Part shown: positions 31,434-55,041 of the stretch, piece after piece | Position numbering within the stretch: position 1 is the first letter of the stretch | Layout: every line of letters begins with the position of its first letter | Origin: Stenotrophomonas maltophilia | GTDB lineage: Bacteria; Pseudomonadota; Gammaproteobacteria; Xanthomonadales; Xanthomonadaceae | Reading direction: 5' to 3' | DNA length: 64,000 bases | NCBI RefSeq assembly: GCF_004920835.1 | Contig: NZ_QFHO01000002.1 | Span: 186,001-250,000, forward strand | The notes under the pieces: model-generated | What the model was told of the DNA's origin: nothing | Seen by the model: only the letters and a program-made list of their open reading frames with translations | The model's database searches: none | Made by a program: the position numbers and the translations under genes

Positions 31434-31694
31434 GTCGAAGGTGGGGAGGGTCCGGTGGCAAGGGTGTGAGCCGCATGGGCCCGAGGCATGCCTCGGGCGG
31501 GTTGGGCAGGACGCCCAACCCGGGTCTTGCCGTGTGCGCAGGACTGCGCACACGAGCAAGCCGCGACCAAGCCCCCATGGACGGGTTTACGGCGTCCCCT
31601 GCCACCGGACCCTCCCCGCCAACGCTCAGGAAACCAGCTTTTGCTTTTGCTCTGGCTCTTAGCGGGTGCAGGGCAGCAGCCCTGCCGTACCCCA
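31434..31694 (+). repeat. Composite palindromic repeat, copy A
   Basis: Begins GTCGAAGG. The outer stem is a perfect 18-bp inverted repeat (31443-31460 with 31600-31617). Inside are three more hairpins: a perfect palindrome at 31479-31498, GGGTTGGGC / GCCCAACCC (31499-31521) and GTGTGCGCA / TGCGCACAC (31532-31553). A conserved block, GCCCCCATGGACGGGTTTAC and onward (31571-31599), and a tail with CTTTTGCTTTTGCT and GCAGGGC / GCCCTGC complete it. Copies B and C share the same order. There is no coding sequence and no transposase. Confidence 0.8.
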
Positions 31695-31708
31695 GCCCAA
31701 TCCACGAT

Positions 31709-31757
31709 TTGACGCACTGCGCAAGAATGCGTTAATGTACTAACACGCTATTACATT
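31709..31757 (+). promoter_or_regulatory. Promoter and operator of the hisR-his operon
   Basis: TTGACG (31709-31714) and TAATGT (31733-31738) form a sigma-70-type promoter with an 18-bp spacer. The inverted repeat AATGTA-N12-TACATT (31734-31757) overlaps the -10 and the transcription start, the natural place for a repressor. The TrpR-like gene that follows is the obvious candidate ligand-responsive repressor. Confidence 0.6.
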
Positions 31758-31775
31758 GATGCAAGAGCCCTGCCC

Positions 31776-32084
31776 GTGAAAGCCCGCCCCGACATCGCCG
31801 CCAAAGACCCGCAAGCCGATCTGGACGCCCTGGCCCAGGCCTTTGCCGCGCTGCGCGAGCCGGAGCAGGTGGTCGCCTTCCTGCGTGACCTGTGCACCCC
31901 GGCCGAGCTGGAAGCCATGGCCGACCGCTGGAAGGTGGTGCCGCTGCTGCAGCAGGGCGTGCCGTATCGCGAGATCCACGAGCGCACCGGCGTCAGCGTG
32001 ACCACCACCGGACGGGTGGCACGCACGCTCGAGCATGGCCATCGAGGCTATGCCGCCGCTGTCGACCGCCTTGCTTCGCGCTGA
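31776..32084 (+). CDS. hisR: TrpR/YerC-YecD-family regulator, predicted HisR repressor
   Basis: 102 residues from a GTG. The fold is that of TrpR-like helix-turn-helix proteins: [20 protein letters not shown], then [28 protein letters not shown] as the DNA-binding part. It lies 34 bp upstream of hisG in the same direction, an arrangement in which this family is regarded as a histidine-responsive repressor. An inverted repeat over its own promoter supports autoregulation. The ligand is inferred to be histidine by context; no ligand-binding residue can be named from sequence alone. Confidence 0.85.
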
Positions 32085-32118
32085 ACCGCGCCCCGTTCCA
32101 GACTTCGAGACCTCCCCC

Positions 32119-33030
32119 ATGAGTGCAACCCAGGCAGCGCCGGCGCGAGACCGGCTGCGTATCGCCATCCAGAAGAGTGGCCGGCTGGCCGAGCCCGCCC
32201 GCAACCTGCTCAGTGCCTGTGGCCTGAGTTGGCGCGAGAGCCGCGACAAGCTGTTCTGCTACGGCGAATCGCTGCCGGTGGACCTGCTGCTGGTGCGCGA
32301 CGACGACATTCCCGGCCTGATCGCCGATGGCGTCTGCGACCTCGGCATCGTCGGCCGCAACGAACTGGACGAACAGGCCGCCGCGCGTCGCCAGATCGGC
32401 CTGGCCGATACCTATCAGGCATTGCGCGGGCTGGGCTTCGGCCAGTGCCGGCTGATGCTGGCGGTGCCAGAAGAATGGCAGTGGCAGGGCCCGGCCCAGC
32501 TGGCCGGCACCCGCATCGCCACCAGCTACCCGGCCATCCTCAAGCAGTGGCTGATGGAGCAGGGCGTGGACGCGCAGGTAGTCGAACTGTCTGGCTCGGT
32601 CGAGATCGCACCGCGTCTGGGCACCGCCGACCTGATCTGCGACCTGGTCTCCAGCGGTGCCACGCTGCGCGCCAACCAGCTTACCCCGGTGCACAACCTG
32701 CTCGACAGCGAAGCCGTGCTGGCCGGTGCGGTACGCGTTCCCGATGATGCGCGCGGCGCCCTGCGCAGCATGCTGCTGCGCCGCCTGGACGGTGTGGTGC
32801 AGCGGCAGGACCGCAAGCTGCTGATGTTCCGCGCCAGCGAGGACCGCGTCGATGCGTTGTCGCAGCTGCTGGCCGATGCCGAACCGCTGGTGCGGTTGCC
32901 GGCTGATGGCGGTGCACTGCGCCTGCAGACCATGTGCCCCGGTCCGTTGAGCTGGCAGCGCATGGAGGAACTCGAGCGCGCCGGTGCGCAGGGCCTGATG
33001 GTACTGAGCGTGGAGCGATCGCTGGCATGA
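32119..33030 (+). CDS. hisG: ATP phosphoribosyltransferase
   Basis: 303 residues from the ATG at 32119 ([23 protein letters not shown]); upstream in-frame starts overlap hisR. It is the long form of HisG: the catalytic part has [10 protein letters not shown] and [28 protein letters not shown] (outlined), followed by a C-terminal domain from about residue 220 that is the usual histidine feedback site. It joins ATP and PRPP, the first step of histidine synthesis. Its stop overlaps hisD (ATGA). Confidence 0.97.
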
Positions 33031-34322
33031 ACCGTCTGATCTGGTCCCGACTTGATGAGGCCGCGCGCAGCGCGGCACTGACCCGCCCGGTGCAGACCGT
33101 GGCGCAGCAGACCCGTGATGCGGTGGCCGCGCTGATCGCGCAGGTACGCACGCAGGGTGACGACGCGCTGCGCGCGATCACCGCGCGCTTCGATGGCGTG
33201 GATCTGCAGGATTTCGAAGTTTCCGCAGCCGAGTTCGCAGCTGCCGATGCCGCAGTGCCGGCCGAGCTGCGCCAGGCCATGGTGGAAGCGGCCGAACGCA
33301 TCACCCGCTTCCATGCGGCCGGCATGGGCCAGGGCTATACGGTGGAAACCGCGCCGGGCGTGGTCTGCGAACGCATGCTGCGCCCGATCGGCCGGGTGGG
33401 CCTGTATGTGCCGGCTGGCAGCGCGCCGCTGCCGTCCACCGCGTTGATGCTGGGCGTTCCGGCGCAGCTGGCCGGTTGCCCGCAGGTGGTGCTGTGCACG
33501 CCGCCGCGCGCCGACGGTAGCGCCGATCCGGCGGTGCTGGTGGCCGCGCGGCTGACCGGCGTGCAACGCGTGTTCAAGCTGGGTGGTGCGCAGGCGATCG
33601 CGGCGATGGCCTATGGCACCGAAAGCATCCCGGCCAGCGACAAGCTGTTCGGGCCGGGCAACAGTTTCGTCACCGAGGCCAAGCAGCAGGTGGCACAGGA
33701 CGGTGCCGCCGCCATCGACATGCCGGCCGGTCCCTCGGAAGTGCTGGTGATCGCCGATGCCGGTGCCAACCCTGCATTCGTTGCCGCCGACCTGCTGTCG
33801 CAGGCCGAGCACGGCCCGGATTCACAGGTGCTGCTGCTGACCGATGACGCGGCGATGCTGGCCGCCGTCGAGGCCGAAGTTGAACGCCAGGTGGCCTTGC
33901 TGCCGCGGCAGCACATCGCCCGCCAGGCGCTGTCGGCATCGCAGTTGATCCAGGTGGAATCGCTGGCCGATGCGTTTGCGATCAGCAACCGCTACGCCCC
34001 CGAACACCTGATCCTGGCCCTGCGCGAACCGCGCGCGTGGCTGGACCAGGTGCAGGCGGCCGGTTCGGTGTTCCTCGGCGACTACACGCCGGAAGCACTG
34101 GGTGACTACTGCAGCGGCACCAACCACGTGCTGCCCACCGCTGGTGCCGCGCGCGCCTACAGTGGCGTCAGCGTGGCCAGCTTCCAGAACCTGATCAGCG
34201 TACAGAGCGCGACCGCCGCTGGCCTGGCCGCGATCGGTGGCTGCGCGCGCATCATCGCCAGCGCCGAAGGACTGGATGCACACGAACGTGCGGTGGCACT
34301 GCGCATGGAGGTGGCCGCATGA
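33027..34322 (+). CDS. hisD: Histidinol dehydrogenase
   Basis: 431 residues from the ATG at 33027, overlapping hisG. Signatures include [47 protein letters not shown] and the zinc and catalytic region [14 protein letters not shown] and [10 protein letters not shown]. The final [11 protein letters not shown] is typical. It oxidises histidinol to histidine with two NAD and a zinc ion, the last two steps of the pathway. The stop overlaps hisC by four bases. Confidence 0.97.
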
Positions 34323-35413
34323 GCGCGGACATCGACGGCGTGCTGGCCCTGGTACGGCCGGACCTGCAGGCCTTTGCCGGCTACAGTTCGGCGCGCAGCA
34401 GCGCTGTGCAGGGCGAGGTGTGGCTGAACGCGAACGAATCAGCGTGGGCCAATCCGGCAGACGCCACCGGGGGCAGCCGCCGCTACCCGGAGCCGCAGCC
34501 GGCTGCGCTGCGTGATGCGCTGGCGTCGCTGTACGGCGTGCAGGCGCAACAGCTGCTGGTAGGCCGTGGCAGCGACGAGGCGATCGATCTGCTGGTCCGC
34601 GCCCTGTGCGTGCCCGGCCGCGATGGCGTGCTGGTGACGCCACCGGTATTCGGCATGTACGCAGTCTGTGCACGCTTGCATGGTGCGCCGTTGATCGAGG
34701 TGCCGCTGATTGACGATGGTGAGGGCCTGCGCACGGACCTGGATGCGGTGATTGCCGCTGCGAAGGGGCAGGGCGCCAAGCTCGTTTTCCTGTGCGCGCC
34801 GTCCAATCCTGCCGGCAGTGATATCCCGCTGCCCGAGATCGAACGGGTGGCTCGTGCCCTGCGTGGGCAGGCGCTGGTGGTGGTGGACGAGGCCTATGTC
34901 GAGTACGCACAGCGCGCTTCGGCGACCACGTTGCTTGCCACGCACGCCAACCTGGCGGTGCTGCGCACGTTGTCCAAGGCGCACGCACTGGCCGCCGCGC
35001 GTATCGGTACCTTGATCGCCGCGCCGGAACTGATTGCCGTGCTGCGCCGCTGCCAGGCGCCGTACCCGGTGCCGACGCCGTGCTCCGAGCTGGCCGTGCA
35101 GGCGCTGCAGCCGGCCGCGCTCGCGCGCACCGCTGAGCGGGTAGCCACGGTCATCACCGAGCGCGAGCGCCTGTACCGCGCCCTGCAGGGCCTGCCCGGC
35201 ATTGGCCGGGTATACGCTTCGGCCGGCAATTACCTGCTGGTCCGCTTCGCCGATGCACAGGCCGCGTTCGATACGCTGTTGGAAGCCGGCGTGGTGGTGC
35301 GCGACCAGCGCGCTGCACCGCAGCTGGACGATGCACTGCGCATCAGTATCGGCAGCCCCGAAGAGAATGACCGCGTGCTTGCGGCCCTGTCGGCGCGGAG
35401 GGCCGCAGCATGA
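34319..35413 (+). CDS. hisC: Histidinol-phosphate aminotransferase
   Basis: 364 residues, a fold-type I pyridoxal-phosphate aminotransferase. The cofactor lysine is Lys220 in [15 protein letters not shown]. Other landmarks are [35 protein letters not shown] and [11 protein letters not shown]. It converts imidazole-acetol phosphate and glutamate to histidinol phosphate. It is joined to hisD and hisB by four-base overlaps, so the genes are translationally coupled. Confidence 0.97.
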
Positions 35414-36483
35414 CCCCGATCCTGTTCATCGACCGCGACGGCACCCTCATCGAGGAGCCGTCCGATTTCCAGATCGACGCCTACGAGAAGCTGCGCTTCG
35501 TGCCACAGGTCATTCCAGCGCTGCTGAAGCTGCGCGATGCCGGCTACCAGTTCGTGATCGTCACCAATCAGGACGGGCTGGGCAGCGACAGCTACCCGCG
35601 CGCCAGTTTCGATGGCCCGAATGACCTGATGCTGCAGATCTTCGAAAGCCAGGGCATCACCTTCCGTGACGTGCTGATCGACTGCAGCTGGCCGCAGGAC
35701 AATGCGCCCACCCGCAAGCCGGGCATCGGCCTGATGACGGCCTACCTGCAGGACCGCAGCATCGACTGGGCGCGTTCGGGCATGGTCGGCGACCGCATCA
35801 CCGACCTGCAGTTCGCCGAGAATCTCAACATCCGCGGTTTCCAGCTGCGCACCGAGCAGTTCGGTGGCGAGTGGGACTGGCCGGGCATCGCCCACGTGCT
35901 GGCCGACGCGCCGCGCACCGCCGTGGTCCAGCGCAACACGAAAGAGACGAAGATCCGCGTCGAACTGGACCTGGACCGTGCCGGCGATGCGCGCATCGAC
36001 ACCGGGCTGCCGTTCTTCGACCACATGCTGGAACAGATCGGCAAGCACGGTGGCTTCGCGCTGGACATCCAGGCCGAGGGTGACCTGCACATCGACGAGC
36101 ACCACACCATCGAAGACACCGGTCTCGCATTGGGCCAGGCGCTGCGCGAGGCGCTGGGCGACAAGCGCGGCATCGGCCGCTACGGCTTCACCCTGCCGAT
36201 GGACGAGACCCTGGCCAGCGCCGCGCTGGACTTCAGTGGCCGCCCCTATTTCGTGTTCGAGGGCGAGTTCAAGCGCGAGCGGGTGGGCGACATGCCGACC
36301 GAGCTGGTTCCGCACTTCTTCCGTTCGCTGTGCGACGCCAGCGGCTTGAACCTCAACCTGCAGGTGCGCGGCGACAACGACCACCACAAGGTCGAGGCCT
36401 GCTTCAAGGCGCTGGCGCGCGCGCTGCGTCCGGCGCTGGCCAGGCAGGGCAGAGCCTTGCCCACCACCAAGGGGGCGCTGTGA
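35410..36483 (+). CDS. hisB: Bifunctional histidinol phosphatase / imidazoleglycerol-phosphate dehydratase
   Basis: 357 residues. The N-terminal HAD phosphatase has the catalytic FIDRDGTL with Asp8 and Asp10, then [10 protein letters not shown] and MVGDRITD. From about residue 165 the dehydratase domain shows RDGRAG-like metal-binding patterns: [29 protein letters not shown], and [13 protein letters not shown] plus [15 protein letters not shown]. The fused form is typical of gammaproteobacteria. It performs two non-consecutive steps of histidine synthesis. Four-base overlap on both sides. Confidence 0.97.
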
Positions 36484-37082
36484 GCGACGTTGCGCTGATC
36501 GATGCCGGCGGGGCCAACCTGGGTTCGGTGCGCTACGCATTGGAGCGGCTCGGTGCGACGGTGAAGCTGGTTCGCGATGCCGAAGGCCTGGCCGGCGCGC
36601 AACGGGTGATCCTGCCCGGCGTCGGCGCCGCTGGTCCCGGCATGCAGCGCCTGCATGCGCAGGGTCTGGTGGAACCATTGCAGCGGCTGGAAGTGCCGTT
36701 GATGGGCATCTGCCTGGGCATGCAGCTTCTGTTCGAGCGCTCCGAAGAGGCCGGCGTAGAAGCGCTGGGACTGATTCCCGGCGTGGTGCGCAAGCTGGTG
36801 CCGGCCTGTGGCATTCGCGTACCGCACATGGGCTGGAACCGCCTGCTGCCGCTGCGCGAATCGCTGTTGCTGCAGGGCTTGCCGGAGCGCGCCAGCGCCT
36901 ATTTCGTGCACAGCTATGCAGCACCGCTCAACGCCCACACGGTAGCCGCCTGCGATCACGGCGGCCTGTTCACCGCGGTGGTGGAGCAGGGGCGCTACTT
37001 CGGCGCACAGTTCCATCCCGAGCGCTCCGGCGATACCGGTTCGTTGATGCTGCGCAATTTCCTCGAGGGCACTGCTGCATGA
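36480..37082 (+). CDS. hisH: Imidazole glycerol-phosphate synthase glutaminase subunit
   Basis: 200 residues from a GTG at 36480 that overlaps the hisB stop; an upstream in-frame ATG at 36330 inside hisB is not credible because it precedes [19 protein letters not shown], the normal start. It is a class I glutamine amidotransferase with Cys78 ([11 protein letters not shown]), His179 and Glu181 (FHPERSG). It supplies ammonia to HisF, encoded two genes downstream. Four-base overlaps on both sides. Confidence 0.96.
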
Positions 37083-37813
37083 GTTTCATCGTCTACCCCG
37101 CGCTGGATATCCGAGATGGCCGCGTGGTGCGGCTGCGCCAGGGCGACTACATGCAGGAAACCTCCTATGGTGACGATCCGCTGCCGCGCGCACAGGCCTT
37201 TGCCGCGCAGGGCGCGCAGTGGATGCACCTGGTCGACCTGGACGCCGCACGCGCCGGTGGCTACACGCTGGCACCGCTGCTGTCGTCGATCCGCGCGCAG
37301 ACCACGCTGCAGGTGCAGACCGGTGGTGGCGTGCGTGGCCGTGACGATGTGGCGCGCATCCTCGATGCCGGCGCTGGCCGCGTGGTGGTCGGCTCACTGG
37401 CGGTGCGTCGCCCCGATGAAGTGGTTGGCTGGCTGGAGGAGTTCGGCGCCGAGCGCATCACCATCGCGCTGGATGCCCGTCAGGACGCACAGGGCCAATG
37501 GCAATTGCCGGTGCATGGCTGGACCGAGAACGCCGGAGTGACCCTGGATGCCCTGGCCCAGCGTTTTGCGCGCGCCGGCATGCGCCACCTGCTGTGTACC
37601 GACATCGCCCGCGACGGCATGCTGGCCGGCCCCAACATCAGCCTCTACCAGCACCTGTCGGCGCTGCTGCCGGGCGTGGCGGTGCAGGCCTCCGGTGGTA
37701 TCCGTGACGTGGCCGATGTGGCCGAAGCCCGCGCCGCCGGTTGCGGCGGTGCGATTCTCGGCAAGGCGCTGCTGGAGCAGCGTATGGACCTGGCGGAGGC
37801 GCTGGCATGTTGA
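37079..37813 (+). CDS. hisA: ProFAR isomerase
   Basis: 244 residues forming a TIM barrel. Start region [20 protein letters not shown] with catalytic Asp10; second half [13 protein letters not shown] and [13 protein letters not shown] hold the phosphate-binding loops. It isomerises ProFAR to PRFAR. It is homologous to the adjacent HisF, a known pair arising from gene duplication. The end overlaps hisF by seven bases. Confidence 0.97.
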
Positions 37814-38583
37814 GCCGCCGCATCATTCCCTGCCTGGACGTGCGCGATGGCCGCGTGGTCAAGGGCGTACGCTTCCGCGACCACGTCGATATGGGCGACA
37901 TCGCCGAACTGGCACAGCGCTACCGCGACCAGGGCGCCGACGAGCTGGTGTTCTATGACATCGGCGCCAGTCCCGAGGCACGTTCGGTGGATGTGGCCTG
38001 GATCGAGCGCATCGCGCGCCTGATCGACATTCCGTTCTGCGTGGCCGGTGGCATCGACAGCGTGGAAACTGCACGTCGCGTGCTGTTCGCCGGTGCCGAC
38101 AAGGTGTCGATCAACTCGCCGGCGCTGGGCCGCCCGGAGCTGATCACCGAGCTGGCAGACGAGTTCGGCGTGCAGTGCGTGGTGGTGGGGGTCGATTCGG
38201 TACGCGAGGCCGATGGCCAGTGGCGGGTGCGTCGATTCAGCGGTGACCCTGACAAGACCCAGGCGGTGCCACTGCGCACACTGGACTGGATCGTCGAAGC
38301 ACAACGGCGTGGCGCAGGCGAGATCGTGCTGAACTGCATGGACAGCGATGGTGTGCGCCGTGGCTACGATGTCGCGCAGCTGCAGCAGGCGCGGGCACTG
38401 TGCCAGGTGCCGCTGATCGCCTCCGGCGGTGCCGGTGCGATGGAGCACTTCGCCGAAGCCTTCGACCAGGCCGACGTCGACGGCGCGCTGGCGGCCAGTG
38501 TGTTCCACAGTGGCGCCATCGCCATTCCAGAATTGAAGCGCTACCTGCGCGGACAGCAGATCGAGGTGCGGGATGTCTATTGA
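37807..38583 (+). CDS. hisF: Imidazole glycerol-phosphate synthase cyclase subunit
   Basis: 258 residues from the ATG at 37807 ([20 protein letters not shown]), with catalytic Asp11 in CLDVRDG. The TIM barrel includes [32 protein letters not shown] and [17 protein letters not shown]. With HisH it turns PRFAR and ammonia into imidazole glycerol phosphate and AICAR. It overlaps hisA by seven and hisIE by eleven bases. Confidence 0.97.
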
Positions 38584-39193
38584 AGTGAAACCATCACTGG
38601 ATGCGCTGCAGGCGCTGGACTGGGACAAGGGCGACGGCCTGCTGCCGGCGGTGGTGCAGGATGCCGACACCCTGCAGGCGCTGATGCTGGGCTATGTCAG
38701 CGCCGAATCGCTGGCGGCCACGCTGGCCATCGGCCACATGACCTTCTTCAGCCGCAGCAAGCAGCGGTTGTGGACCAAGGGCGAGCAGTCCGGCAACGTG
38801 CTGGTGGTGCAGTCGATCAGTGTCGACTGTGATGCCGACACGCTGCTGGTGATGGCGCGCCCGGCCGGGCCGACCTGCCACACCGGCGCCGAGAGTTGTT
38901 TCGACGGGGCACCGAAGGACTTCCTGGGTGGGCTGGGCCAGCTGGTGGCGATGCGCGAGGCGCAGCGGCCGCCAGGCAGCTACACCACCAGCCTGTTCGA
39001 GGGCGGCATCCGCCGCATCGCACAGAAGGTGGGCGAGGAGGGCGTGGAGACGGCTCTGGCGGCGGTGGCACAGGACGACGAGGCGCTGCTGGGCGAGGCC
39101 TCGGACCTGCTGTATCACCTGCTTGTGCTGCTGCGCGCGCGCGGCTTGTCGCTGGATGATGCGCGGGCAGTACTGGAAAAACGCCATCGTTGA
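38573..39193 (+). CDS. hisI: Bifunctional phosphoribosyl-AMP cyclohydrolase / phosphoribosyl-ATP pyrophosphatase
   Basis: 206 residues, the fused HisIE. The cyclohydrolase part has [19 protein letters not shown] and DCDADTLL with zinc-site residues, then CHTGAESCF. The pyrophosphatase part (from about residue 115) has [21 protein letters not shown] and [13 protein letters not shown]. It carries out the second and third steps of histidine synthesis. It is the last gene of the operon, followed by an inverted SMAG pair that may end or protect the transcript. Confidence 0.97.
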
Positions 39194-39198
39194 GCTGC

Positions 39199-39274
39199 GG
39201 TAGTGCCGGCCGCTGGCCGGCAACCACCAGATGCCCGACGATCATGAGGTTGCCGGCCAGCGGCCGGCACTACC
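39199..39274. repeat. Pair of inverted SMAG-type GTAG hairpins
   Basis: GGTAGTGCCGGCC at 39199 and its mirror GGCCGGCACTACC ending at 39274 flank a short centre. Each half is itself a TGCCGGCC / GGCCGGCA hairpin. The pair starts 6 bp after the his operon and may act as its 3' end. Confidence 0.9.
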
Positions 39275-39349
39275 GGCAATGCGCCACCGCGTGCGCGATG
39301 TCATCAACGGAATCTACAATAGGCGGTCTTCTTTTTCCCCGGACCGCCC

Positions 39350-40939: not shown

Positions 40940-40975
40940 TCCAGGGCGCCGCTGCCCAACGCGAAAGGACCCCGC

Positions 40976-41260
40976 ATGGATATCCGCTTCATGGCCGGCA
41001 CCACGCCGGTGACGCTGAGCCGCCACTGGTTCACCGGTGCGATGCTGCTGCAGAGCGCTACCGAAAAGGTCTGGGTGCAGCATCCGCTGCACCCGGGCAC
41101 CCACTTCTCGTTCTCGCTGGTACAGTCGTGGTTGCGCCACATCGCCGGCCACGAAGTGCTGGTCGAGCGCACCCGGCCATTGTTGTTTGCCGGCTTCCGC
41201 CCGCAGCGCCTGCGCGTGCTGGTGGACGGCGTGCAGGTGGCCGAACAGGAAGGCATGTAG
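40976..41260 (+). CDS. Conserved-looking small protein of unknown function
   Basis: 94 residues starting MDIRFMAGTTPVTLSRHW, with AAGGA correctly placed before the ATG. It has no signal peptide or membrane helix; beta strands alternate with one amphipathic helix (FSFSLVQSWLRHIAG). It lies 36 bp after the phosphoesterase and before the glucokinase operon. I recognise no family. Good ribosome-binding site and codon use support a real gene. Confidence 0.65.
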   Translation: MDIRFMAGTTPVTLSRHWFTGAMLLQSATEKVWVQHPLHPGTHFSFSLVQSWLRHIAGHEVLVERTRPLLFAGFRPQRLRVLVDGVQVAEQEGM

Positions 41261-41293
41261 GCCAACCTGAACCATCGGCGTGCTAGGCAAAGC

Positions 41294-41319: not shown

Positions 41320-41320
41320 A

Positions 41321-41334: not shown

Positions 41335-41344
41335 GCAGGCCAGC

Positions 41345-44476: not shown

Positions 44477-44546
44477 GTGCCCGGATCAGCCGTAGAGCCG
44501 CGCCACCAACCGTCCGTGCGTCCACACTTTCGAAGAGCAACCACCC

Positions 44547-47504: not shown

Positions 47505-47525
47505 GGTGGACAGCGGGGGCGTCGG

Positions 47526-47542
47526 GCCTTGATCCGCAAGGC
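47526..47542 (+). terminator. Hairpin after the TonB receptor gene
   Basis: GCCTTG (47526-47531) / CAAGGC (47537-47542) with a 5-nt loop, extended imperfectly by flanking GGGG and CCCC. No T-run follows, so its strength is uncertain. Confidence 0.3.
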
Positions 47543-47557
47543 GTCCCCGTCCGCTCG

Positions 47558-47581
47558 GTAGATCCACGCCATGCGTGGATG
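47558..47581 (+). repeat. SMAG-type GTAG hairpin
   Basis: GTAG followed by ATCCACGC / GCGTGGAT arms around CAT. Single copy between the TonB receptor and copA, just ahead of the copper promoter. Confidence 0.8.
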
Positions 47582-47612
47582 GACCCCTTCATGAACCCCG
47601 GGGTGGCTGGAT

Positions 47613-47643
47613 TTGACCTTCCCACGATGGCAAGGTTTAGCCT
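47613..47643 (+). promoter_or_regulatory. CueR-type promoter of copA
   Basis: TTGACC (47613-47618) and TAGCCT (47638-47643) are separated by 19 bp, the overlong spacer of MerR-family promoters. Between them ACCTTCC and GGCAAGGT form the inverted repeat bound by CueR. Transcription would start near 47650, so copA begins at 47678. Confidence 0.88.
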
Positions 47644-47677
47644 GTCCGCATCCAGAAGGAACCCCGGGAATCCGATC

Positions 47678-50179
47678 ATGACCACGCCCCGCGCCACTGC
47701 AGTCCCCGCCAGCTCGGCCACCATCAGCCTGCCCATCGAGGGCATGACCTGCGCCAGCTGCGTCGGCCGTGTCGAAGCGGCACTGTCCAAGGTTGAAGGC
47801 GTGGGCAGTGTCTCGGTGAACCTGGCCACCGAGCGGGCGGATATCCGCGCGTCCGGACCGGTCGATCGTGCCGCGCTGATCCAGGCGGTGGAGCGGGTGG
47901 GCTACGACGTGCCGGCCGCCACCGTCGAGCTGGCGGTGGAGGGCATGACATGTGCCTCCTGCGTCGGCCGCGTCGAGCGCGCGCTGCTGGCGGTACCGGG
48001 CGTCAACCAGGCCAGCGTCAACCTGGCCACTGAACGCGCCACGGTGCGCGGCGTGGCAGCCGCGGACGCGCTGGTGGCGGCCATCGACAAGGTCGGCTAC
48101 GTCGCACGCCTGATCGAGGCCGGCGTGCAGTCCGATGATGAGGCCGCCGAAAAGAAGGATGCCGAGCGCGCCGAACTGAAGCGCGACCTGATCGTGGCGA
48201 GCGCGCTTGCGTTGCCGGTGTTCGTGCTGGAAATGGGCTCGCACCTGATTCCCGGCATGCACGAATGGGTGATGGCCACCATCGGCATGCAGACCAGCTG
48301 GTACCTGCAGTTCGTACTGACCCTGCTGGTGCTGGCCATTCCCGGCCGCCGCTTCTACCAGAAGGGTTTCCCGGCACTGCTGCGGCTGGCACCGGACATG
48401 AACTCGCTGGTGGCGGTGGGTACCGCCGCAGCGTTCGGTTACTCGGTGGTGGCGACCTTTGCACCGCGGTTGTTGCCGCCGGGCACGGTGAACGTCTACT
48501 ACGAAGCAGCGGCGGTGATCGTCGCGCTGATCCTGCTCGGCCGCTTCCTTGAGGCGCGCGCGAAGGGCCGTACCTCCGAGGCGATCAAGCGCCTGGTCAA
48601 CCTGCAGGCCAAGGTCGCACATGTGATCCGTGACGGCCGCACGATCGAGATTCCGGTCAACGAGGTTCTGAGCGGCGATGTGGTGGAAGTGCGCCCGGGC
48701 GAGCGCGTGCCGGTCGATGGCGAGGTGATCGAGGGCCGTAGCTACATCGACGAGTCGATGATCAGTGGCGAACCGATTCCGGTCGAGAAGCAGCCGGGCA
48801 GCAGCGTGGTGGGCGGCACGGTCAACCAGAAAGGTGCACTGACCGTGCGTGCCACGGCGGTGGGCGCGCAGACCATGCTGGCGCAGATCATCCGCATGGT
48901 CGAACAGGCACAGGGCTCGAAGCTGCCGATCCAGGCGGTGGTCGACAAGGTCACCCTGTGGTTCGTGCCGGCGGTGATGCTGGCCGCACTGGCGACCTTC
49001 GCGGTCTGGTTGATCTTCGGCCCATCGCCGGCGCTGAGCTTCGCGCTGGTCAATGCGGTGGCGGTATTGATCATTGCCTGCCCGTGTGCAATGGGCCTGG
49101 CCACGCCGACGTCGATCATGGTCGGTACCGGCCGCGGCGCCGAGATGGGCGTGCTGTTCCGCAAGGGTGAAGCACTGCAGTTGCTGAAGGACGCGCAGGT
49201 AGTGGCGGTGGACAAGACCGGTACGCTGACCGAAGGCCGGCCGCGCCTGACCGACCTGGAGATCGCCGACGGCTTTGATCGCGCCACAGTGCTGGCCGCG
49301 GTCGCCACCGTGGAATCACGTTCGGAGCATCCGATCGCCCGCGCCATTGTCGATGCAGCCACCGAGCAGGGCCTCGCGCTGCCATCGATGGTCGATTTCG
49401 ATTCGGTCACCGGCATGGGCGTGCGCGCCAGCGTAGAGGGCGCACGGGTAGAGGTCGGCGCCGATCGCTTCATGCGCGATCTTGGCGTGGATATCACCGC
49501 GTTTGCGGCGCTGGCGGCCGAACTCGGCGCGCAGGGCAAGTCGCCGTTGTACGCGGCCATCGATGGACGCCTGGCAGCGATCATCGCAGTATCCGATCCG
49601 ATCAAGCCGAGCACGCCGGCCGCGATCGCGGCGCTGCATCAGCTTGGCCTGAAGGTGGCGATGATCACCGGTGACAACACCGGTACCGCGCAGGCGATCG
49701 CGCGCCAGCTGGGTATCGATGAAGTGGTGGCCGAAGTGCTGCCGGAAGGCAAGGTCGAGGCGGTGCGCCGCTTGAAGGCCACTCATGGCCATGTTGCCTT
49801 TGTTGGTGACGGCATCAACGATGCGCCGGCGCTGGCCGAGGCCGATGTCGGCCTGGCCATCGGGACCGGCACCGATATCGCGGTGGAGTCGGCCGATGTG
49901 GTGCTGATGTCGGGCAACCTGCAGGGCGTGCCGAATGCCATCGCGCTTTCGAAGGCAACGCTGGGCAACATCCGACAGAACCTGTTCTGGGCCTTTGCCT
50001 ACAACACCGCATTGATTCCGGTGGCGGCCGGCGTGCTGTACCCGGTCTGGGGTGTGCTGCTGTCGCCGGTGTTCGCCGCCGGTGCGATGGCCTTGTCCAG
50101 CGTGTTCGTGCTGGGCAATGCGCTGCGCCTGCGCCGCTTCCAGCCGCCGATGGCGGATGCCCCCGCTGCGAGCCACTGA
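47678..50179 (+). CDS. copA: Copper-exporting P1B-type ATPase
   Basis: 833 residues from the ATG at 47678; earlier in-frame ATGs lie upstream of the predicted transcription start and are excluded. Two N-terminal copper-binding domains each carry GMTCASC. Membrane helices enclose the metal-transport motif [13 protein letters not shown]. The catalytic Asp is in [10 protein letters not shown], with the TGD loop [18 protein letters not shown] and [11 protein letters not shown]. It pumps Cu(I) out of the cytoplasm using ATP. It is followed after 11 bp by cueR, so activator and pump share one transcript. Confidence 0.96.
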
Positions 50180-50190
50180 AGGAGAACCGC

Positions 50191-50646
50191 ATGAACATCG
50201 GTGAAGCCGCCAAGGCCTCCAGCGTATCGGCGAAGATGATCCGCTACTACGAACAGATCGGCCTGATTCCCGCGGCAGATCGCACCGAGTCCGGCTACCG
50301 GGCGTATTCGCAGGCGGACATCCACCGCCTGCGTTTCATTCGCCGCGCGCGCGATCTCGGCTTCCAGGTCGCCGAGATCACCGACCTTCTGGGCCTGTGG
50401 AACGACACCTCGCGGCACAGTGCCGACGTCAAGCATCTTGCCGAACAGCACATCGCCGACCTGGAACAGCGTATCGAAAGCATGCGGCAGATGGCCGACA
50501 CGCTGAAGTCGTTGATCAGCTGCTGTGCGGGCGATGAGCGCCCGGAATGCCCGATCCTGCAGCGGCTGGGCGAGGACGAAGAGACCCTGACACCGCCGGA
50601 GGCCGCGAAGACCGGTGCAGTACGGCGCCGCACGCACAAGCACTGA
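50191..50646 (+). CDS. cueR: Copper-responsive MerR-family activator
   Basis: 151 residues: MerR helix-turn-helix (MNIGEAAKASSVSAKMIRYYEQIGLI, in outline), a long dimerisation helix, and a C-terminal copper loop SCCAGDERPECPIL whose two outer cysteines correspond to the Cu(I) ligands of CueR. In the Cu(I) form it untwists 19-bp-spacer promoters, and such promoters are present before copA and copZ. The C-terminus is longer than E. coli CueR and basic. It is probably cotranscribed with copA, giving positive feedback. Confidence 0.93.
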   Translation: MNIGEAAKASSVSAKMIRYYEQIGLIPAADRTESGYRAYSQADIHRLRFIRRARDLGFQVAEITDLLGLWNDTSRHSADVKHLAEQHIADLEQRIESMRQMADTLKSLISCCAGDERPECPILQRLGEDEETLTPPEAAKTGAVRRRTHKH

Positions 50647-50665
50647 CCTGGCGTTGCATGCATGA

Positions 50666-50705
50666 AAAAACCCGCCCGGTGCAGCTGCACCGGGCGGGGT
50701 TTTCG
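50666..50705. terminator. Bidirectional Rho-independent terminator
   Basis: A perfect 28-nt palindrome (50671-50698; arms CCCGCCCGGTGC) is preceded by A-run AAAAAA and followed by TTTT, so it works for cueR on the plus strand and copZ on the minus strand. Confidence 0.92.
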
Positions 50706-50726
50706 TTGCAGCCGCAGGGTAGGGAA

Positions 50727-50921
50727 TCAGGCCGTGCGCGGCGGGAAGCCTGCATCGGTCAGTGCCGCCACGATCTGTGATTCGCTGGCCGAGGTCTGCA
50801 CCTGCACGCGACGGCTGGCCGGATCTGCCTGCACGCTGGCCTGCGGATCGACCAGCTCGATCGCCTTGGTCACGCTGCGTGCGCAGCCGCCGCAGGTCAT
50901 GCCTTCAACGTGGAATTCCAT
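50727..50921 (-). CDS. copZ: Copper chaperone CopZ-like protein
   Basis: 64 residues from the ATG at 50921 (MEFHVEGMTCGGCARSV), with AGGAG upstream. It is a single heavy-metal-associated domain with the Cu(I) ligand pair Cys10 and Cys13 in MTCGGC. It would carry cytosolic Cu(I) to CopA. An in-frame ATG at 50963 lies inside the CueR operator and is unlikely. The gene has its own 19-bp-spacer promoter, convergent with cueR. Confidence 0.92.
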   Translation of the reverse strand: MEFHVEGMTCGGCARSVTKAIELVDPQASVQADPASRRVQVQTSASESQIVAALTDAGFPPRTA

Positions 50922-50954
50922 CTGTAGCTCCTTCGGTGCTCTTGGGGTGGAGCC

Positions 50955-50985
50955 AGTGTGCACCTTCCAACATTGGCAGGGTCAA
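50955..50985 (-). promoter_or_regulatory. CueR-type promoter of copZ
   Basis: On the minus strand TTGACC (50985-50980) and CACACT (50960-50955) are 19 bp apart. The inverted repeat between them ends GGAAGGT, as in the copA promoter. Confidence 0.82.
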
Positions 50986-51120
50986 GCGCAGGGCTGAACC
51001 GAAGAAAAGCGCCAACAAAAACAGCAGCCACCTGTACCAGCGCGGCTGCCGTGGAGGACCGTCCCCGCCAGGGCGGGACGTGGGTTGCACCGGGGCGGGC
51101 CCGGGCAACCCGGTGTTGCC

Positions 51121-54100
51121 TTAGAACTTCCAGGTGGCGCCGAAGTACAGCTGGCGGCCTGCGTAGGTATTGGAGATCAGGCGTGCCTTGGTGTCGCTTC
51201 CCAGGTGCACGCGCTGTTCGGACTTGGTGGCATTGATCACCGAGGCGGTCAGGGTCCAGTCCGGGGTCAGGTTGTAGGCCACGTTCAGATCCAGCTGGTC
51301 ATACGGCTCGGTGTAAACGGTGAGGCCGTTGTTGAGCCCGCCGACCACCTGGCCGCGACGGTTGAACGAGGCGCGCGCGAGGAACTTCTCGTTCTCGTAG
51401 AAGACCGTCACGTTGGCCTGGTTCTTGGCGCTGCCGACCAGCGGCGAGGAGCCGATTTCCTGCCCGTCCAACACAATGGAAGCCAGGTTGGTGTCGTTGT
51501 AGGTGTAGTTGGCCTGCACGCCGAAGCCGAAATCGAAGGTGTACTGGCCATACAGCTCGACGCCCTGCGAGACACCATCGCGGCCATTGGCCTGGGTTTC
51601 ATAGCGCTGCACGTTCACCGCTTCACCGCCGATGACCATCGGCGTGTCGCGCACCACCGGCAGGGTGAAGTTGTCCACGTTCTTGCGGAACAGGCCGACG
51701 CCGGCGACCGCGCCCGGCTGGAAGTACCACTCCAGGCCCAGGTCGAACTGGGTGGCCTTGAACGGTTCCAGCTGCTTGTTGCTGCCCTTGCCGACCCAGC
51801 CTGCGGTCGATGCGCCACCGGCAACGCGGCGATCATTGACATACTCTTCGCTGTAATAGCTCAGTGCGCCCGGAGCTGCGATGTCGGTGTAGCCGGGGCG
51901 GGCGATCACCTTCGACGCGGCACCACGCAGCACCAGCGTGTCGGTGATGTCCCAGGCGATATTGAAGCTCGGCAGTACGTCGGTGTAGGTACGGTCCACG
52001 CCGATCAGGTCGTACGTCTTGCTCTGCGCGAGGTCGTGCGGCAGGCGCACGAAGCCGCTCTCGCAGCTGTAGGTCGGGTAGGCCGCAGCGGCCGGATCGG
52101 TGCACGCCATCGGTGCGCCGGATGCGTTGTCCAGGAAGTAGTCGTTGAACTTCTCGATCGAGTCGGAGGACTGCGCGAACTGCTTGGTGCGCACCACGCG
52201 CACGCCGACATTGCCGCGCAGGCGTTCGGTACGGAAGTTGGCCTGGAAGTAGCCCGAGTAGATCTTCTCGTTGACGTTGTAGACGAAGTCTTCCTCGGTA
52301 CGGTTGTGCGAACCGCCGTAGGTCTTGTTCAAGTAGTCGATGTAGGCCGGGTAGTTGATGCCCGGGAACACGTTGGCATTGAAGCCGCCGGCAATGTTGC
52401 TGATCGGATTGGACAGGAAGAAGCCGGGCTGCGCGTCGCCGGCAGTCGGATCGCAGCCACTCTGGTAGCGGCTGTTGTCATAGTCGGCCGGGTCGCGGCC
52501 GGGGCACACCCAGTAGGTGTTGCCGGTATTGCGATGGACCTTGCCGTCACGGTATTTGGCACCGAACTGGATCGAGTCCAGCCAGCCCGACTCGAACAGC
52601 TTGGTCACGTCAGCCTGGAAGTAGTTCTGCTTGACCTCGGTGCGCTTCCACGACGAATCGGTCGAGCCGGTGTCGACTTCGGCGATGCCGTTCATCAGCT
52701 GCTGCTGCAGGTCGGGCGAGAAGGTGGCCGACGGCGTGCCGGTCAGGTCCCATGCGCTGTACAGGTTGCCCGACAGGTAATCGTTGCCGACCTTGCGCCG
52801 CGGCTTGGCCGACATGCGGAAGTTCATCGACGGACCACCTTCGGACCAGGTACGGCCGCCGGTGAACGAGGCCTTCCACAGCGGGCTGATATCCCAGTCG
52901 ATGGTCAGGTCAGCGGTCTGCGACAGCGCCTTTTCCTTGCTGTAGCCACCGGTCAGCTGCGGCGTCGGAACCGTGCAGTCGTCCGGGCCCCAGCCGCCGG
53001 GCTTCAGGCCAGCGGCCTTGGCCTGGTCTTCGCTGCAGTAGTAGGTCTTTCCAGCCAGCTTTTCGAACTGGGCGCCGGTGACGGTGTTTCCGCTGGGATC
53101 GAAATCCAGGCCGTTGAGCAGGCGGCCGCCGGCCCAGTTTCCATCACCGTTGAAGCGGGCCATGCTCCATTCCGGGATCTTCAGCATGTTCTGGGTGTAA
53201 TCACCCTGCAGCTCGAAGCGGAAGTAGTTGGCCGTCATCGTGACGTTGTCCACCGGCTTGAACTGGAAGGTCAGCTGGCCGCCCTTGCGCTCGCGCTTTT
53301 CTTCCTTCACGGCGAAGTTGACCGAGGTCGGCATGAAGAAGTCGCTGTAGTTGCCGCCGGTCTGGTTGTTGAAACCGGACTTGCCCCACCAGTAGTGGAT
53401 GCCATCCTGCGCCTGCACGTTGCCATAGGCATCGCGCGCCTTGCCGGCGCCATACCACTGGTAGTCCTCGGTGCTGGCTTCCATGGTGCGGGTGGTGCGC
53501 TTCTGCTGCGTCACGCCGATCAGCACGCCGAAACGCTCGTCCTTGCTGTGCCACGAATACAGGGCTGAGGCCTGCGGGTCGATATCGTGGTGGGTATCGG
53601 AGGAGGTGCCCTCGAGCGTGACGAAGCCCGAGTTGGATTCCATGTCCAGCGGACGCCGCGTGTGCAGGATGACTGTGCCGCCGATGCCGCCTTCGTCGAT
53701 GCGGGCTTCCGGCGACTTGAACAGTTCTGCACTGGACAGCATGTTCGACGGCAGCAGGGTGTAGTTGAACGAACGGGTGGCTTCGTCGTTGGTTTCCGAC
53801 GTGGCCACGTAGTTGCCGTTCAACTGGGTCAGGGTCAGGTCCGGCGCAAGGCCGCGCACGCTGACGCTCTTGCCTTCGCCACCGCTGCGGGTGATGACTA
53901 CGCCGGGCACGCGCTGCAACGCGTCGGCGACGTTCTTGTCGGGGAACTTGCCGACATCTTCTGCGGTGATCACTTCGACCACGGCGTTGGCGTCGCGCTT
54001 CTGTGACAGGCTCTTCTCGATGGCGTAGCGGTAGCCGGTGACCTGGACGCTGTCCAGGTTGGTGGCCTCCTGCGAGCCGGTGGAGGTGGCCTGCTGCGCG

Positions 54101-54192
54101 GCGGCGCCAGCCGGAATGACGGCGGCGGCCAAGGCCAGCGCGATGGCCAACGCCAGTGCGTCCTGACCATGCGTACGTGTTGAATGCTTCAT
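51121..54192 (-). CDS. TonB-dependent receptor of the mannoside locus
   Basis: 1023 residues from the ATG at 54192 (MKHSTRTHGQDAL), eight bases after GGGAG; farther upstream ATGs are worse placed. Signal peptide ALALAIALALAAAVIPAGAAA. The plug has VVEVITAEDVGKFPDKNVADALQRVPGVVI and SVRGLAPDLTLTQLNG (outlined), typical of the Xanthomonas/Caulobacter carbohydrate receptor subtype, and the barrel ends LYFGATWKF. It is divergent from the GH92 gene with LacI-type operators between them, so it should bring oligomannosides across the outer membrane. Confidence 0.93.
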   Translation of the reverse strand: MKHSTRTHGQDALALAIALALAAAVIPAGAAAQQATSTGSQEATNLDSVQVTGYRYAIEKSLSQKRDANAVVEVITAEDVGKFPDKNVADALQRVPGVVITRSGGEGKSVSVRGLAPDLTLTQLNGNYVATSETNDEATRSFNYTLLPSNMLSSAELFKSPEARIDEGGIGGTVILHTRRPLDMESNSGFVTLEGTSSDTHHDIDPQASALYSWHSKDERFGVLIGVTQQKRTTRTMEASTEDYQWYGAGKARDAYGNVQAQDGIHYWWGKSGFNNQTGGNYSDFFMPTSVNFAVKEEKRERKGGQLTFQFKPVDNVTMTANYFRFELQGDYTQNMLKIPEWSMARFNGDGNWAGGRLLNGLDFDPSGNTVTGAQFEKLAGKTYYCSEDQAKAAGLKPGGWGPDDCTVPTPQLTGGYSKEKALSQTADLTIDWDISPLWKASFTGGRTWSEGGPSMNFRMSAKPRRKVGNDYLSGNLYSAWDLTGTPSATFSPDLQQQLMNGIAEVDTGSTDSSWKRTEVKQNYFQADVTKLFESGWLDSIQFGAKYRDGKVHRNTGNTYWVCPGRDPADYDNSRYQSGCDPTAGDAQPGFFLSNPISNIAGGFNANVFPGINYPAYIDYLNKTYGGSHNRTEEDFVYNVNEKIYSGYFQANFRTERLRGNVGVRVVRTKQFAQSSDSIEKFNDYFLDNASGAPMACTDPAAAAYPTYSCESGFVRLPHDLAQSKTYDLIGVDRTYTDVLPSFNIAWDITDTLVLRGAASKVIARPGYTDIAAPGALSYYSEEYVNDRRVAGGASTAGWVGKGSNKQLEPFKATQFDLGLEWYFQPGAVAGVGLFRKNVDNFTLPVVRDTPMVIGGEAVNVQRYETQANGRDGVSQGVELYGQYTFDFGFGVQANYTYNDTNLASIVLDGQEIGSSPLVGSAKNQANVTVFYENEKFLARASFNRRGQVVGGLNNGLTVYTEPYDQLDLNVAYNLTPDWTLTASVINATKSEQRVHLGSDTKARLISNTYAGRQLYFGATWKF

Positions 54193-54243
54193 TCCCATCT
54201 CTCCCTCTCTCCTGGATTGATCCGGTGACGTGGCACGGACAAC

Positions 54244-54257
54244 TTGAATCGATCTAA
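54244..54257. promoter_or_regulatory. LacI-type operator at the TonB receptor promoter (proximal)
   Basis: TTGAATCGATCTAA, a near palindrome centred on ATCGAT, 52 bp upstream of the receptor ATG. It is identical to the site upstream of the GH92 gene (55093-55106). Confidence 0.8.
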
Positions 54258-54365
54258 TTTGAAGTGACATTGTCGCTATTGCCATGCAGTGGCAGTAGCA
54301 CCGTGCGCGTGGCCTGGTACGTCCTGTTGCTGCTCCCCCAACTCCCGGCCATCGCAGTGTCGTTC

Positions 54366-54379
54366 TTGGATCGATCTAA
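54366..54379. promoter_or_regulatory. LacI-type operator at the TonB receptor promoter (distal)
   Basis: TTGGATCGATCTAA, differing from the proximal operator at one base and centred 122 bp from it. Two operators at this distance could be bridged by a LacI tetramer. Confidence 0.75.
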
Positions 54380-54506
54380 GCGATGGGCGGGCGATTTTTA
54401 GCATGGGTCGCCCGCGGGCGCATGCTGCTCCGCAATATGGTACTGGCGTGGCGAAGGGATGACGGTTTGCTGAAAACAGTGAAATCGTTTTCGTGCGCAG
54501 GGGAGG

Positions 54507-54705
54507 GTGGGTCGGCAGGGCTGCGCCTTGCACCTGCTGTGAGCCAGGGCAACAGCCAAAGCCAAAGCCAAAGCGGCTCTGGGTTGTCTGTGTGTTGGGC
54601 GGGGCGGTGTCGGATTGCGGGGACGCCGTAAACCCGTCCATGGGGGCTTGGCCGCGGCATCCATGCCGCGGACACCCCGCAATCCGACACGGCCCCGCCT
54701 TCGAC
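54507..54705 (-). repeat. Composite palindromic repeat, copy B
   Basis: On the minus strand it begins GTCGAAGG. Outer arms of 25 bp (54598-54622 with 54675-54699) differ at one base, and an inner hairpin CCGCGGCAT / ATGCCGCGG lies at 54652-54671. The conserved block (54619-54647) matches copy A in reverse orientation. The tail, with CAAAGCC repeats and GGCAGGGCTGCGCC, extends to 54507. Confidence 0.8.
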
Positions 54706-54752
54706 CGTTTCACGGTGGCGGTTGGATTGATCCTGGAACGACATGGGGTCGT

Positions 54753-54793
54753 GGGGTCAGATCCGTTTTCCTTTGGAAAACGGATCTGACCCC
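54753..54793. repeat. 41-bp perfect hairpin with GGGGTCAGATCC ends
   Basis: Two perfect 19-nt arms (54753-54771, starting GGGGTCAGATCC, and 54775-54793) around a TTT loop. It lies between repeats B and C. It is unrelated in sequence to SMAG elements and has no T-run, so a terminator role is not indicated. Confidence 0.85.
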
Positions 54794-54820
54794 GATTGAT
54801 TTCGTTATCTGTCAGAGATT

Positions 54821-54844
54821 GATCGACGCATGGCGTGGATCTAC
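54821..54844 (-). repeat. SMAG-type GTAG hairpin
   Basis: ATCCACGCCATGCGT-type arms on the minus strand with GTAG (CTAC at 54841-54844) and one mismatch. It is the same subtype as the copy at 47558-47581. Confidence 0.7.
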
Positions 54845-54862
54845 CGCAGATCGCGGAGATCT

Positions 54863-55041
54863 GTCGAAGGCGGGGTGGGTCCGGTTGCGGGGGCGTCAGC
54901 CGCATGGATGCGGCGACCGAGCCTACATGGACGTACTTACGGCGCCCCCTGCAACCGGACCCACCCCGCCATCCCACGGACAGCCGGCTTTTGCTGTTGC
55001 TTCGGCTTCGGCAGGTGCAGGGCGCAGCCCTGCCGAACACC
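54863..55041 (+). repeat. Composite palindromic repeat, copy C
   Basis: Begins GTCGAAGG at 54863. The outer stem is a perfect 20-bp match (from 54869, pairing with the end at 54970). The inner hairpin is CCGCAT / ATGCGG (54900-54913). The conserved block is diverged (54922-54948). The tail has CTTTTGCTGTTGCTTC and GCAGGGC / GCCCTGC. It faces away from copy B (head-to-head). Confidence 0.8.

Follow-up and report, generated by a model that had tools for sequence, protein, structure and literature searches.

A diverged relative of the Yersinia YPAL/RU-2 repeat in Stenotrophomonas maltophilia, with paired ANGGAY hairpin loops that may serve as RsmA/CsrA sites

The closest described system is YPAL/RU-2 of Yersinia, whose core has a hairpin 2 of the form TAC[ATGGAT]GTA and the sequence TTTACGGCG (PMC2759123 Table 1b). 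One account of YPAL presents it as a mobile element that shows both dyad symmetry and adjoining target duplications of 3-26 bp, and that may influence how stable upstream transcripts are (PMC2229807). The Rfam family Ysr224 (RF02770), reported to be one of the commonest small RNAs in annotations (PMC9029176), is identified here as this same repeat. A second set of related systems comprises RNAs that present GGA to RsmA/CsrA, whose published targets include ANGGAN loops (PMC3791407) and RUACARGGAUGU (PMC4347634). The loop of RsmZ hairpin 2 is AAGGAU (PMC3791407), the Alteromonas Aln1a-c RNAs contain A(N)GGA (PMC5864184), and Xanthomonas RsmU originates from a 3' untranslated region (PMC7694677). 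In the case of RsmU, mutation of all four GGA motifs predicted in it is reported to have abolished neither RsmA binding nor its effect (PMC7694677), which calls for caution in any inference from motifs.

In the 64-kb stretch of S. maltophilia DNA analysed here (the window), a first-pass annotation had noted a palindromic repeat present three times, with a common architecture. That architecture is borne out: each copy starts with GTCGAAGG and contains an outer stem, a conserved block and a tail in which a run (CTTTTGCT or CTTTGGCT) accompanies a hairpin of the GCAGGGC/GCCCTGC type. The count of three holds for the window, while the genome contains 119 matches to the family model. The features of copies A, B and C are as follows.

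31434..31694, + strand: copy A, long form, with GTCGAAGG head, outer stem, hairpin 1 with an inserted module, hairpin 2 and tail
31440..31464, + strand: copy A outer stem, 5' arm, partner of 31592-31620
31592..31620, + strand: copy A outer stem, 3' arm, partner of 31440-31464
31479..31560, + strand: copy A module 1, which interrupts the hairpin 1 loop behind its CATGG
31499-31521 and 31531-31554, + strand: the AGGA-loop hairpins of module 1, read from the sequence
31574..31585, + strand: copy A hairpin 2, CCC[ATGGAC]GGG, from sequence and covariation
31638..31685, + strand: copy A tail, CTTTTGCTTTTGCT run followed by a GCAGGGCAGCAGCCCTGC hairpin (31668-31685)
54507..54705, - strand: copy B, short form, from sequence and fold
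54675..54699, - strand: copy B outer stem, 5' arm, partner of 54598-54622
54598..54622, - strand: copy B outer stem, 3' arm, partner of 54675-54699
54650..54673, - strand: copy B hairpin 1; its C[ATGGAT]G loop spans 54658-54665
54633..54644, - strand: copy B hairpin 2, CCC[ATGGAC]GGG, from sequence and covariation
54515..54573, - strand: copy B tail, CTTTGGCT runs (54554-54573) and a GCAAGGCGCAGCCCTGC hairpin (54515-54531)
54863..55041, + strand: copy C, short form, head-to-head with copy B
54869..54895, + strand: copy C outer stem, 5' arm, partner of 54943-54970
54943..54970, + strand: copy C outer stem, 3' arm, partner of 54869-54895
54899..54914, + strand: copy C hairpin 1, GCCGC[ATGGAT]GCGGC, from sequence and fold
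54924..54935, + strand: copy C hairpin 2, TAC[ATGGAC]GTA, a form common in other genera
54988..55033, + strand: copy C tail, CTTTTGCT run (54988-54995) and a GCAGGGCGCAGCCCTGC hairpin (55017-55033)

The outer stems have 24 (A), 24 (B) and 27 (C) pairs, and the conserved block, CATGGACGGGTTTACGGCG in A and B and indeed diverged in C (CATGGACGTACTTACGGCG), has three matches in the window at ≤3 mismatches versus 0.02 in shuffled sequence. Predicted folds are far more stable than those of shuffles (z-scores of -10.3, -6.8 and -9.0 for A, B and C, with no shuffle as stable). Single-sequence folds do not form hairpin 2 in C and place it in a shifted register in B; support for hairpin 2 rests on covariation. 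In copy A loop 1 is lost and the base of hairpin 1, with GCCGC on both sides, is unpaired; this base is paired at the same site in the relative G001 and in most other module-bearing copies listed. Module 1 also occurs in other copies and is missing from the short ones.

To define the family, 76 pattern matches were collected in the genome, and L070, which lies within a coding frame and was judged a chance match, was excluded along with three truncated copies and eight with inserts or rearranged halves, among them copy A with its long insert. From the 64 remaining, 49 copies below 93% identity formed alignment A1. The family model finds 127 and 138 matches in two relatives, and kin of the repeat are present in 48 of the 273 other gammaproteobacterial genomes sampled, leaving 225 element-free. 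Copy C has no match among 72,556 plasmid and 50,697 phage records; plasmid or phage carriage was therefore rejected, and the best reading is that the repeat is chromosomal. The first-pass annotation had not recognised the kinship with Yersinia repeats, the presence of ANGGA in two loops, the fixed head-to-head arrangement of pairs or the spread of the repeat across gammaproteobacteria.

The same annotation had claimed that the outer stem varies in sequence while keeping its pairing, and had proposed a covariance-model search. The claim proved true over the 49 copies (B and C included, A not), and the search yielded abundant further copies and covariation far above chance. In the alignment, 97.7% of cells are paired and 32 of 37 pairs show double changes, and doubly changed cells number 389, compared with 105 after shuffling and 36-61 after sliding; in 45 matches outside the genus (48 rows less two antisense duplicates and one cut-off match), 97.2% are paired. 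Moreover, on the strand with GGA loops, G.U exceeds A.C by 31 to 8 in the 49 own copies, 41 to 6 in the 45 outside matches and 175 to 40 in a 150-row match set after removal of 14 rows overlapping a better match, compared with 6 to 5 in GTAG hairpins taken as a control. These counts are not independent, since related copies share changes, and the search model behind some copies rewards G.U. The ratio of about 4:1 to 7:1 suggests that the GGA-loop strand behaves like folded RNA, and thus lends support to the structured RNA that the first-pass annotation had named as one possibility.

Sequence comparison indicates that the repeat is a diverged relative of YPAL/RU-2. A search with model R1, which derives from own copies, recovers seven copies in Y. 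similis (six at 67-75 bits and one at 43). In the opposite direction, none of 103 own matches reaches the Ysr224 cut-off of 70 bits (best 42.7), while that model scores 112-134 bits at four Y. similis loci and one Y. pekkanenii locus; the repeat is therefore classed as a relative and not as a member. The window contains no tRNA and no Rfam match above cut-off. Rows for WT1-AS, c-myc IRES, isrG and microRNAs fell below their cut-offs and were judged chance hits on G+C-rich stems; some of the microRNA rows nonetheless lie near E 1e-4. The motifs of the candidate RNA TwoAYGGAY sit in two hairpin loops, and its Rfam model gave no row for any of the three copies at E ≤ 10. This RNA holds AYGGAY twice by name and is listed from human gut, gammaproteobacteria and Clostridiales (PMC2864571).

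A prominent feature of the repeat is that each of the two inner hairpins is capped by a C[ANGGAY]G loop in which the second base is unconstrained. At the two loops this form is found in 48/49 and 49/49 own copies, and in 34/45 and 42/45 copies of other genera; since the named loci of the 150-row set were chosen by the hairpin 2 pattern, its counts for loop 2 were left out of the evidence. The ANGGAN hairpin loops of RsmA/CsrA targets are thus matched by motif and covariation, with mixed results from single-sequence folds. Module 1 contributes two more AGGA-loop hairpins, module 2 takes the place of loop 2 with no GGA loop seen in it, and a copy in G009 has AGAGAC in loop 2. The source genome has one CsrA gene. 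CsrA is present in 44/48 element-bearing genomes versus 63/80 element-free ones (80 drawn from the 225), or 36/37 versus 58/70 when restricted to near-complete genomes, a co-occurrence set aside as weak evidence confounded by genome quality. In G225, which is 98% complete, elements are present and no CsrA match was found.

Our tentatively favoured explanation is that A, B and C belong to a YPAL/RU-2-related chromosomal repeat, probably transcribed and folded as RNA, with its two ANGGAY loops predicted to bind RsmA/CsrA. Copies in 3' untranslated and read-through regions would be transcribed, and each element RNA would present a pair of protein-docking hairpins at the end of a long stem. Acting jointly, the numerous copies may titrate the one RsmA/CsrA of the genome or shield the transcripts in which they lie, so that the repeat would work as a dispersed sponge or switch for this regulator. 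The broader proposal, that a class-wide repeat has spread such predicted docking sites over gammaproteobacterial chromosomes, with about 240 sites per Stenotrophomonas genome forming a distributed sponge and YPAL and Ysr224 RNA as one branch, is possible though doubtful. Several observations count against the RNA explanation: both strands fold about equally well, Ysr224 is annotated in Rfam on the strand without GGA, copy A lies beyond a terminator, B and C share a divergent gap, and tandem copies are neutral in orientation (17 sense, 17 antisense). The loss or replacement of GGA loops in copy A, in module 2 and in the G009 copy, the single-sequence folds of hairpin 2 in B and C, and the absence of a CsrA match in G225 weigh in the same direction. 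In addition, ATGGAT can shrink to four loop bases, which is what copy B shows in its predicted fold, and four-base GGA loops are reported to bind RsmN weakly (PMC3791407). The AAGGAU loop, which does bind, could close to four bases likewise.

One may argue instead, as the first-pass annotation also allowed, that the repeat is non-autonomous mobile DNA, with a putative transposase reading hairpins and loops on one strand (as ssDNA or cruciform) and the loops acting as recognition marks with no RNA role. Hairpin-loop transposition is strand-specific, so it could also yield the strand asymmetry. The kinship with YPAL, reported as mobile with target duplications, points the same way, as does the site of copy A, which among relatives is filled, lacking or a remnant: the element is missing in G008 and G017, where the whole gap differs and no clean empty site is left, and other relatives have different hairpins in its loops. 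Close pairs in the complete relative G005 are all head-to-head, with 5' ends facing (46/46). On the other hand, single copies in G005 show no lagging-strand preference, 29/46 going with the leading strand when the contig start is taken as origin (skew sampled at 20 places, noisy), so lagging-strand targeting was rejected. The lack of plasmid and phage matches also counts against the mobile explanation, which is somewhat unlikely. A 3'-end device, in which stem and T-rich tail end or protect transcripts, chiefly between convergent genes, with pairs serving both directions, is unlikely. Copies shun divergent gaps and prefer convergent ones: of 61 with both neighbours called, 24 lie in convergent, 34 in tandem and 3 in divergent gaps, against 10 convergent among 70 baseline gaps from the window and 20 stretches of G005, and in 49/74 copies the next gene on the tail side is aimed at the element. 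The same distribution over gaps speaks for the RsmA/CsrA explanation as well. These figures, like the gap type given for B and C, come from a codon-usage script and not from annotation, with 77 copies examined and paired copies counted twice. The possible influence of YPAL on upstream transcripts fits such a device, but a terminator scan found none at the outer stem of any of the three copies, with only a weak one in the tail of B and a separate one before A, half of the tandem copies are antisense, and the conserved ANGGAY loops are left unaccounted for. Finally, a neutral palindrome, with template switching at replication copying one arm onto the other to give covariation without selection, is very unlikely: it would suit outer stems that differ freely yet stay near perfect, the hybrids L061 and L063, whose left half repeats the hairpin 2 region in reverse, and flanks of B/C that are 92-96% alike versus 77-88% for the main pieces of B and C (G001, G017, G008, G010), but it predicts neither a G.U excess over A.C nor ANGGAY conservation in two separate loops across genera.

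If the RsmA/CsrA explanation and its class-wide extension hold, a repeat first known in Yersinia and Erwinia descriptions is class-wide, with hundreds of sites in the Csr/Rsm network that controls motility, biofilm and metabolism, and Ysr224 is recast from a small RNA to a repeat. Even without a role for CsrA, the covariation, strand asymmetry and uniform head-to-head pairs call for explanation.

Compared with known systems, the repeat resembles SMAG/GTAG REP elements and BIMEs in forming many intergenic palindromes, often as inverted pairs (PMC2613905; PMC2817692). SMAG elements are short with GTAG at one end, whereas the repeat exceeds 100 bases and has two inner hairpins and no terminal GTAG. 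The first-pass annotation was thus right that it does not resemble SMAG; its statement that GTAG is lacking holds for A and B on either strand, while C has one reverse-strand GTAG, internal to hairpin 2 (54923-54926). Like RsmZ, Aln1a-c and RsmU, the repeat places GGA in hairpin loops, but those RNAs come from one or few genes each and the repeat from about 120 dispersed copies. With YPAL/RU-2 (about 168 bp) it shares many intergenic copies and the same core of outer stem, ANGGAY-loop hairpin 1, hairpin 2 and TTTACGGCG; unlike YPAL/RU-2, the Stenotrophomonas repeat has a G+C-rich outer stem, a T-rich or hairpin tail and loop modules, and its fixed head-to-head pairs, as counted in G005, may be a further difference.

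Three copies of the structured repeat lie in the window (C22:186001-250000), which belongs to a draft source genome of 4,556,904 bases.

31434-31694, plus strand: copy A
54507-54705, minus strand: copy B
54752-54794: 20-pair palindrome, GGGGTCAGATCCGTTTTCC...GGAAAACGGATCTGACCCC, between B and C
54863-55041, plus strand: copy C

Each copy starts with GTCGAAGG, as both read and measured, and has an outer stem (24 pairs in A and B, 27 in C), inner hairpins, a conserved block (CATGGACGGGTTTACGGCG in A and B, CATGGACGTACTTACGGCG in C), a run of CTTTTGCT or CTTTGGCT, and a GCAGGGC/GCCCTGC-type hairpin. The window holds three occurrences of the block, where 0.02 would be expected, and fold z-scores are -10.3 for A, -9.0 for C and -6.8 for B. 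With B on the minus and C on the plus strand, the two copies face each other with their 5' ends. The first-pass annotation had described the repeat as free of GTAG; C does carry one, on the reverse strand within hairpin 2. The repeat tails (31638-31685, 54515-54573, 54988-55033 and those of other copies) are of at least two types, one with a GTTGCT/TTTTGC run and the GCAGGGC hairpin, seen in A, B and C, and another with a CCACGAGGGGCTGCGCCGTTGG stretch, as in loci L001, L025 and L059. The palindrome at 54752-54794 recurs in A's place in genomes G008 and G017, and next to many other copies.

Genome-wide, the block (up to 3 mismatches) has 76 occurrences and its reversed pattern 2. With 150 candidates scored per genome, R1, the covariance model built from 49 own-genome copies, gave 119 matches in the source genome, 127 in genome G011 and 138 in G005, a relative whose genome is complete. 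It is positive in 49 of the 274 sampled genomes of the class, the source genome being counted among the 49, and in 19 of 299 sampled genomes of the phylum (non-class share not given), all 19 in the same class. Carriers among the matches listed in a named scan include Yersinia, Pantoea, Methylotuvimicrobium, Methylomicrobium, Idiomarina, Alishewanella, Rheinheimera, Sedimenticola and Pseudohongiella, and R1 matches were confirmed in every one of these genera. Copy C had no match in plasmid and phage records.

Pairing is kept through sequence change. In the alignment of the 49 own copies, 97.7% of cells hold standard pairs, double changes occur at 32 of 37 pairs, and doubly changed cells number 389, against 105 in shuffled and 36-61 in slid versions. 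Outside the genus (45 R1-found matches, 39 loci), 97.2% are paired, all four Watson-Crick types are seen at 21 of 24 outer pairs, and hairpin 2 covaries, its first pair being C-G or U-A and the next C-G or A-U. Folding single copies in silico gives a less clear picture of hairpin 2 than this covariation: the hairpin is absent for C and register-shifted for B.

G.U pairs are tolerated in folded RNA, and viewed from the opposite strand the same change is A.C. The G.U:A.C ratio is 31:8 in the own copies, which were selected on the block only, and 41:6 in the 39 loci from outside the genus, which were detected with R1, a model whose scoring favours G.U; of these loci 20 tend towards G.U and one towards A.C. 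In a larger set, overlapping in part with the others, it is 175:40; of the 48 genomes or genus groups there, 31 go toward G.U, none toward A.C and 17 tie. GTAG hairpins of the source genome, a small control, gave 6:5. These counts are not independent events, because changes are common to related copies, and fold energies did not distinguish the GGA strand from its opposite. The wobble asymmetry supports the view that the GGA strand would function as RNA.

The hairpin 1 loop is C[ATGGAT]G in 48 of 49 own copies, and the hairpin 2 loop C[ANGGAY]G in 49 of 49, its second base being T in 31, G in 9, A in 7 and C in 2. Outside the genus, C[ANGGAY]G is found in 34 of 45 hairpins 1 and 42 of 45 hairpins 2, with a variable second base in either hairpin. 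The analysis shows that the repeat is a family with this fold and these loops. In the available text of PMC3791407, the RsmN/RsmA target is ANGGAN, the RsmZ hairpin 2 loop is AAGGAU, and GGA within a four-base loop binds weakly; the selection consensus for CsrA is RUACARGGAUGU (PMC4347634, available text), and TAC[AGGGAT]GT, frequent in other genera, fits its positions 2-12. From the loop motif, binding of the repeat by RsmA/CsrA is predicted. The source genome has one CsrA gene; genome G225 has elements and no CsrA hits, which counts against this reading. Changing all four GGA motifs of RsmU still did not abolish RsmA binding (PMC7694677, available text), a caution against relying on the GGA motif alone.

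The repeat may instead be a 3'-end device. Gaps of the 61 copies with both neighbours called are convergent in 24 cases, tandem in 34 and divergent in 3, against 10, 39 and 21 among 70 baseline gaps that are 200 bases long or longer. A lies in a tandem gap beyond a terminator at 31314-31337, and B and C in a divergent gap (genes 51121-54150, minus, and 55267-57699, plus). Copies in tandem gaps are 17 sense and 17 antisense, a neutral orientation that counts against the RNA/CsrA reading. Beside A, 3' of it, TTGACGCACTGCGCAAGAATGCG...TTACATTGATG at 31700-31790 is strongly conserved across eight aligned relatives and precedes a plus-strand ORF (31776-32084); it looks like a promoter with an operator, and a promoter scan made no call there.

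A mobile DNA element is another possible reading. The site of A holds A's module, in hairpin 1, in G001 and G009, a different module, in hairpin 2, in G011 and G006 (whose contig begins inside the element), a remnant in G005 and G010, and no element in G008 and G017. The B/C pair is retained in G001, G017, G008, G010 and G011, visible on B's side alone in G006 and G009, and collapsed in G005. In G005, 92 of 138 copies form 46 close pairs, all minus-then-plus at spacings of 101-265 bases; the order is not universal, for one pair in Methylotuvimicrobium, at locus L230, is plus-then-minus. The insertion point of both modules follows CATGG, in loop 1 for module 1 and in loop 2 for module 2. Module 1 adds two AGGA-loop hairpins; none is apparent in module 2, which counts against the RNA/CsrA reading. 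Locus L353 has both modules, and L360 is a rearranged hybrid of the two. Methylotuvimicrobium buryatense has extra hairpins of other sequence at the loop 1 entry point used in Stenotrophomonas.

L213:1450-1618: extra loop 1 hairpins
L257:208-378: extra loop 1 hairpins
L260:4989-5169 and 4611-4781: extra loop 1 hairpins

The repeat may also be a neutral palindrome with arm-copying. Loci L061 and L063 are hybrids in which the hairpin 2 region, copied in reverse, makes up the left half, a form that fits what arm-copying or recombination would give. At L041 (reverse strand), other short palindromes replace the left half, leaving hairpin 2 and the right arm alone. Several of these readings, the RNA/CsrA one included, may be true at once.

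Among known repeats, YPAL is present in 37-144 copies in 10 of 11 Yersinia genomes, with 2 in Y. ruckeri (PMC2847712, available text), and Ysr224 (Rfam RF02770) is listed among the most prevalent bacterial small RNAs (PMC9029176, available text). The Rfam model of Ysr224 matched B on the opposite strand (32.5 bits, E 1.6e-5, under the cut-off of 70) and gave 103 matches across the source genome (E up to 10), none above cut-off; the annotated strand of Ysr224 counts against the RNA/CsrA reading. Rfam assigns Ysr224 to five Yersinia loci (four of Y. similis, one of Y. pekkanenii; 112-134 bits), and makes no such call for the Pantoea locus or the [Pseudomonas] hibiscicola locus; R1 found seven Y. 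similis copies, six of them scoring 67-75 bits and the seventh 43. Among the papers listed by literature searches with limited coverage of subscription journals, we found none that links YPAL with Ysr224, or either with CsrA. The RU-2 sequence printed in PMC2759123 has the same core as the Stenotrophomonas repeat. Because the core is common to both and R1 and Rfam match in Yersinia, RU-2/YPAL and Ysr224 are, judged by sequence, a single entity read from opposite strands, of which the Stenotrophomonas repeat is, by the same kind of comparison, a diverged relative.
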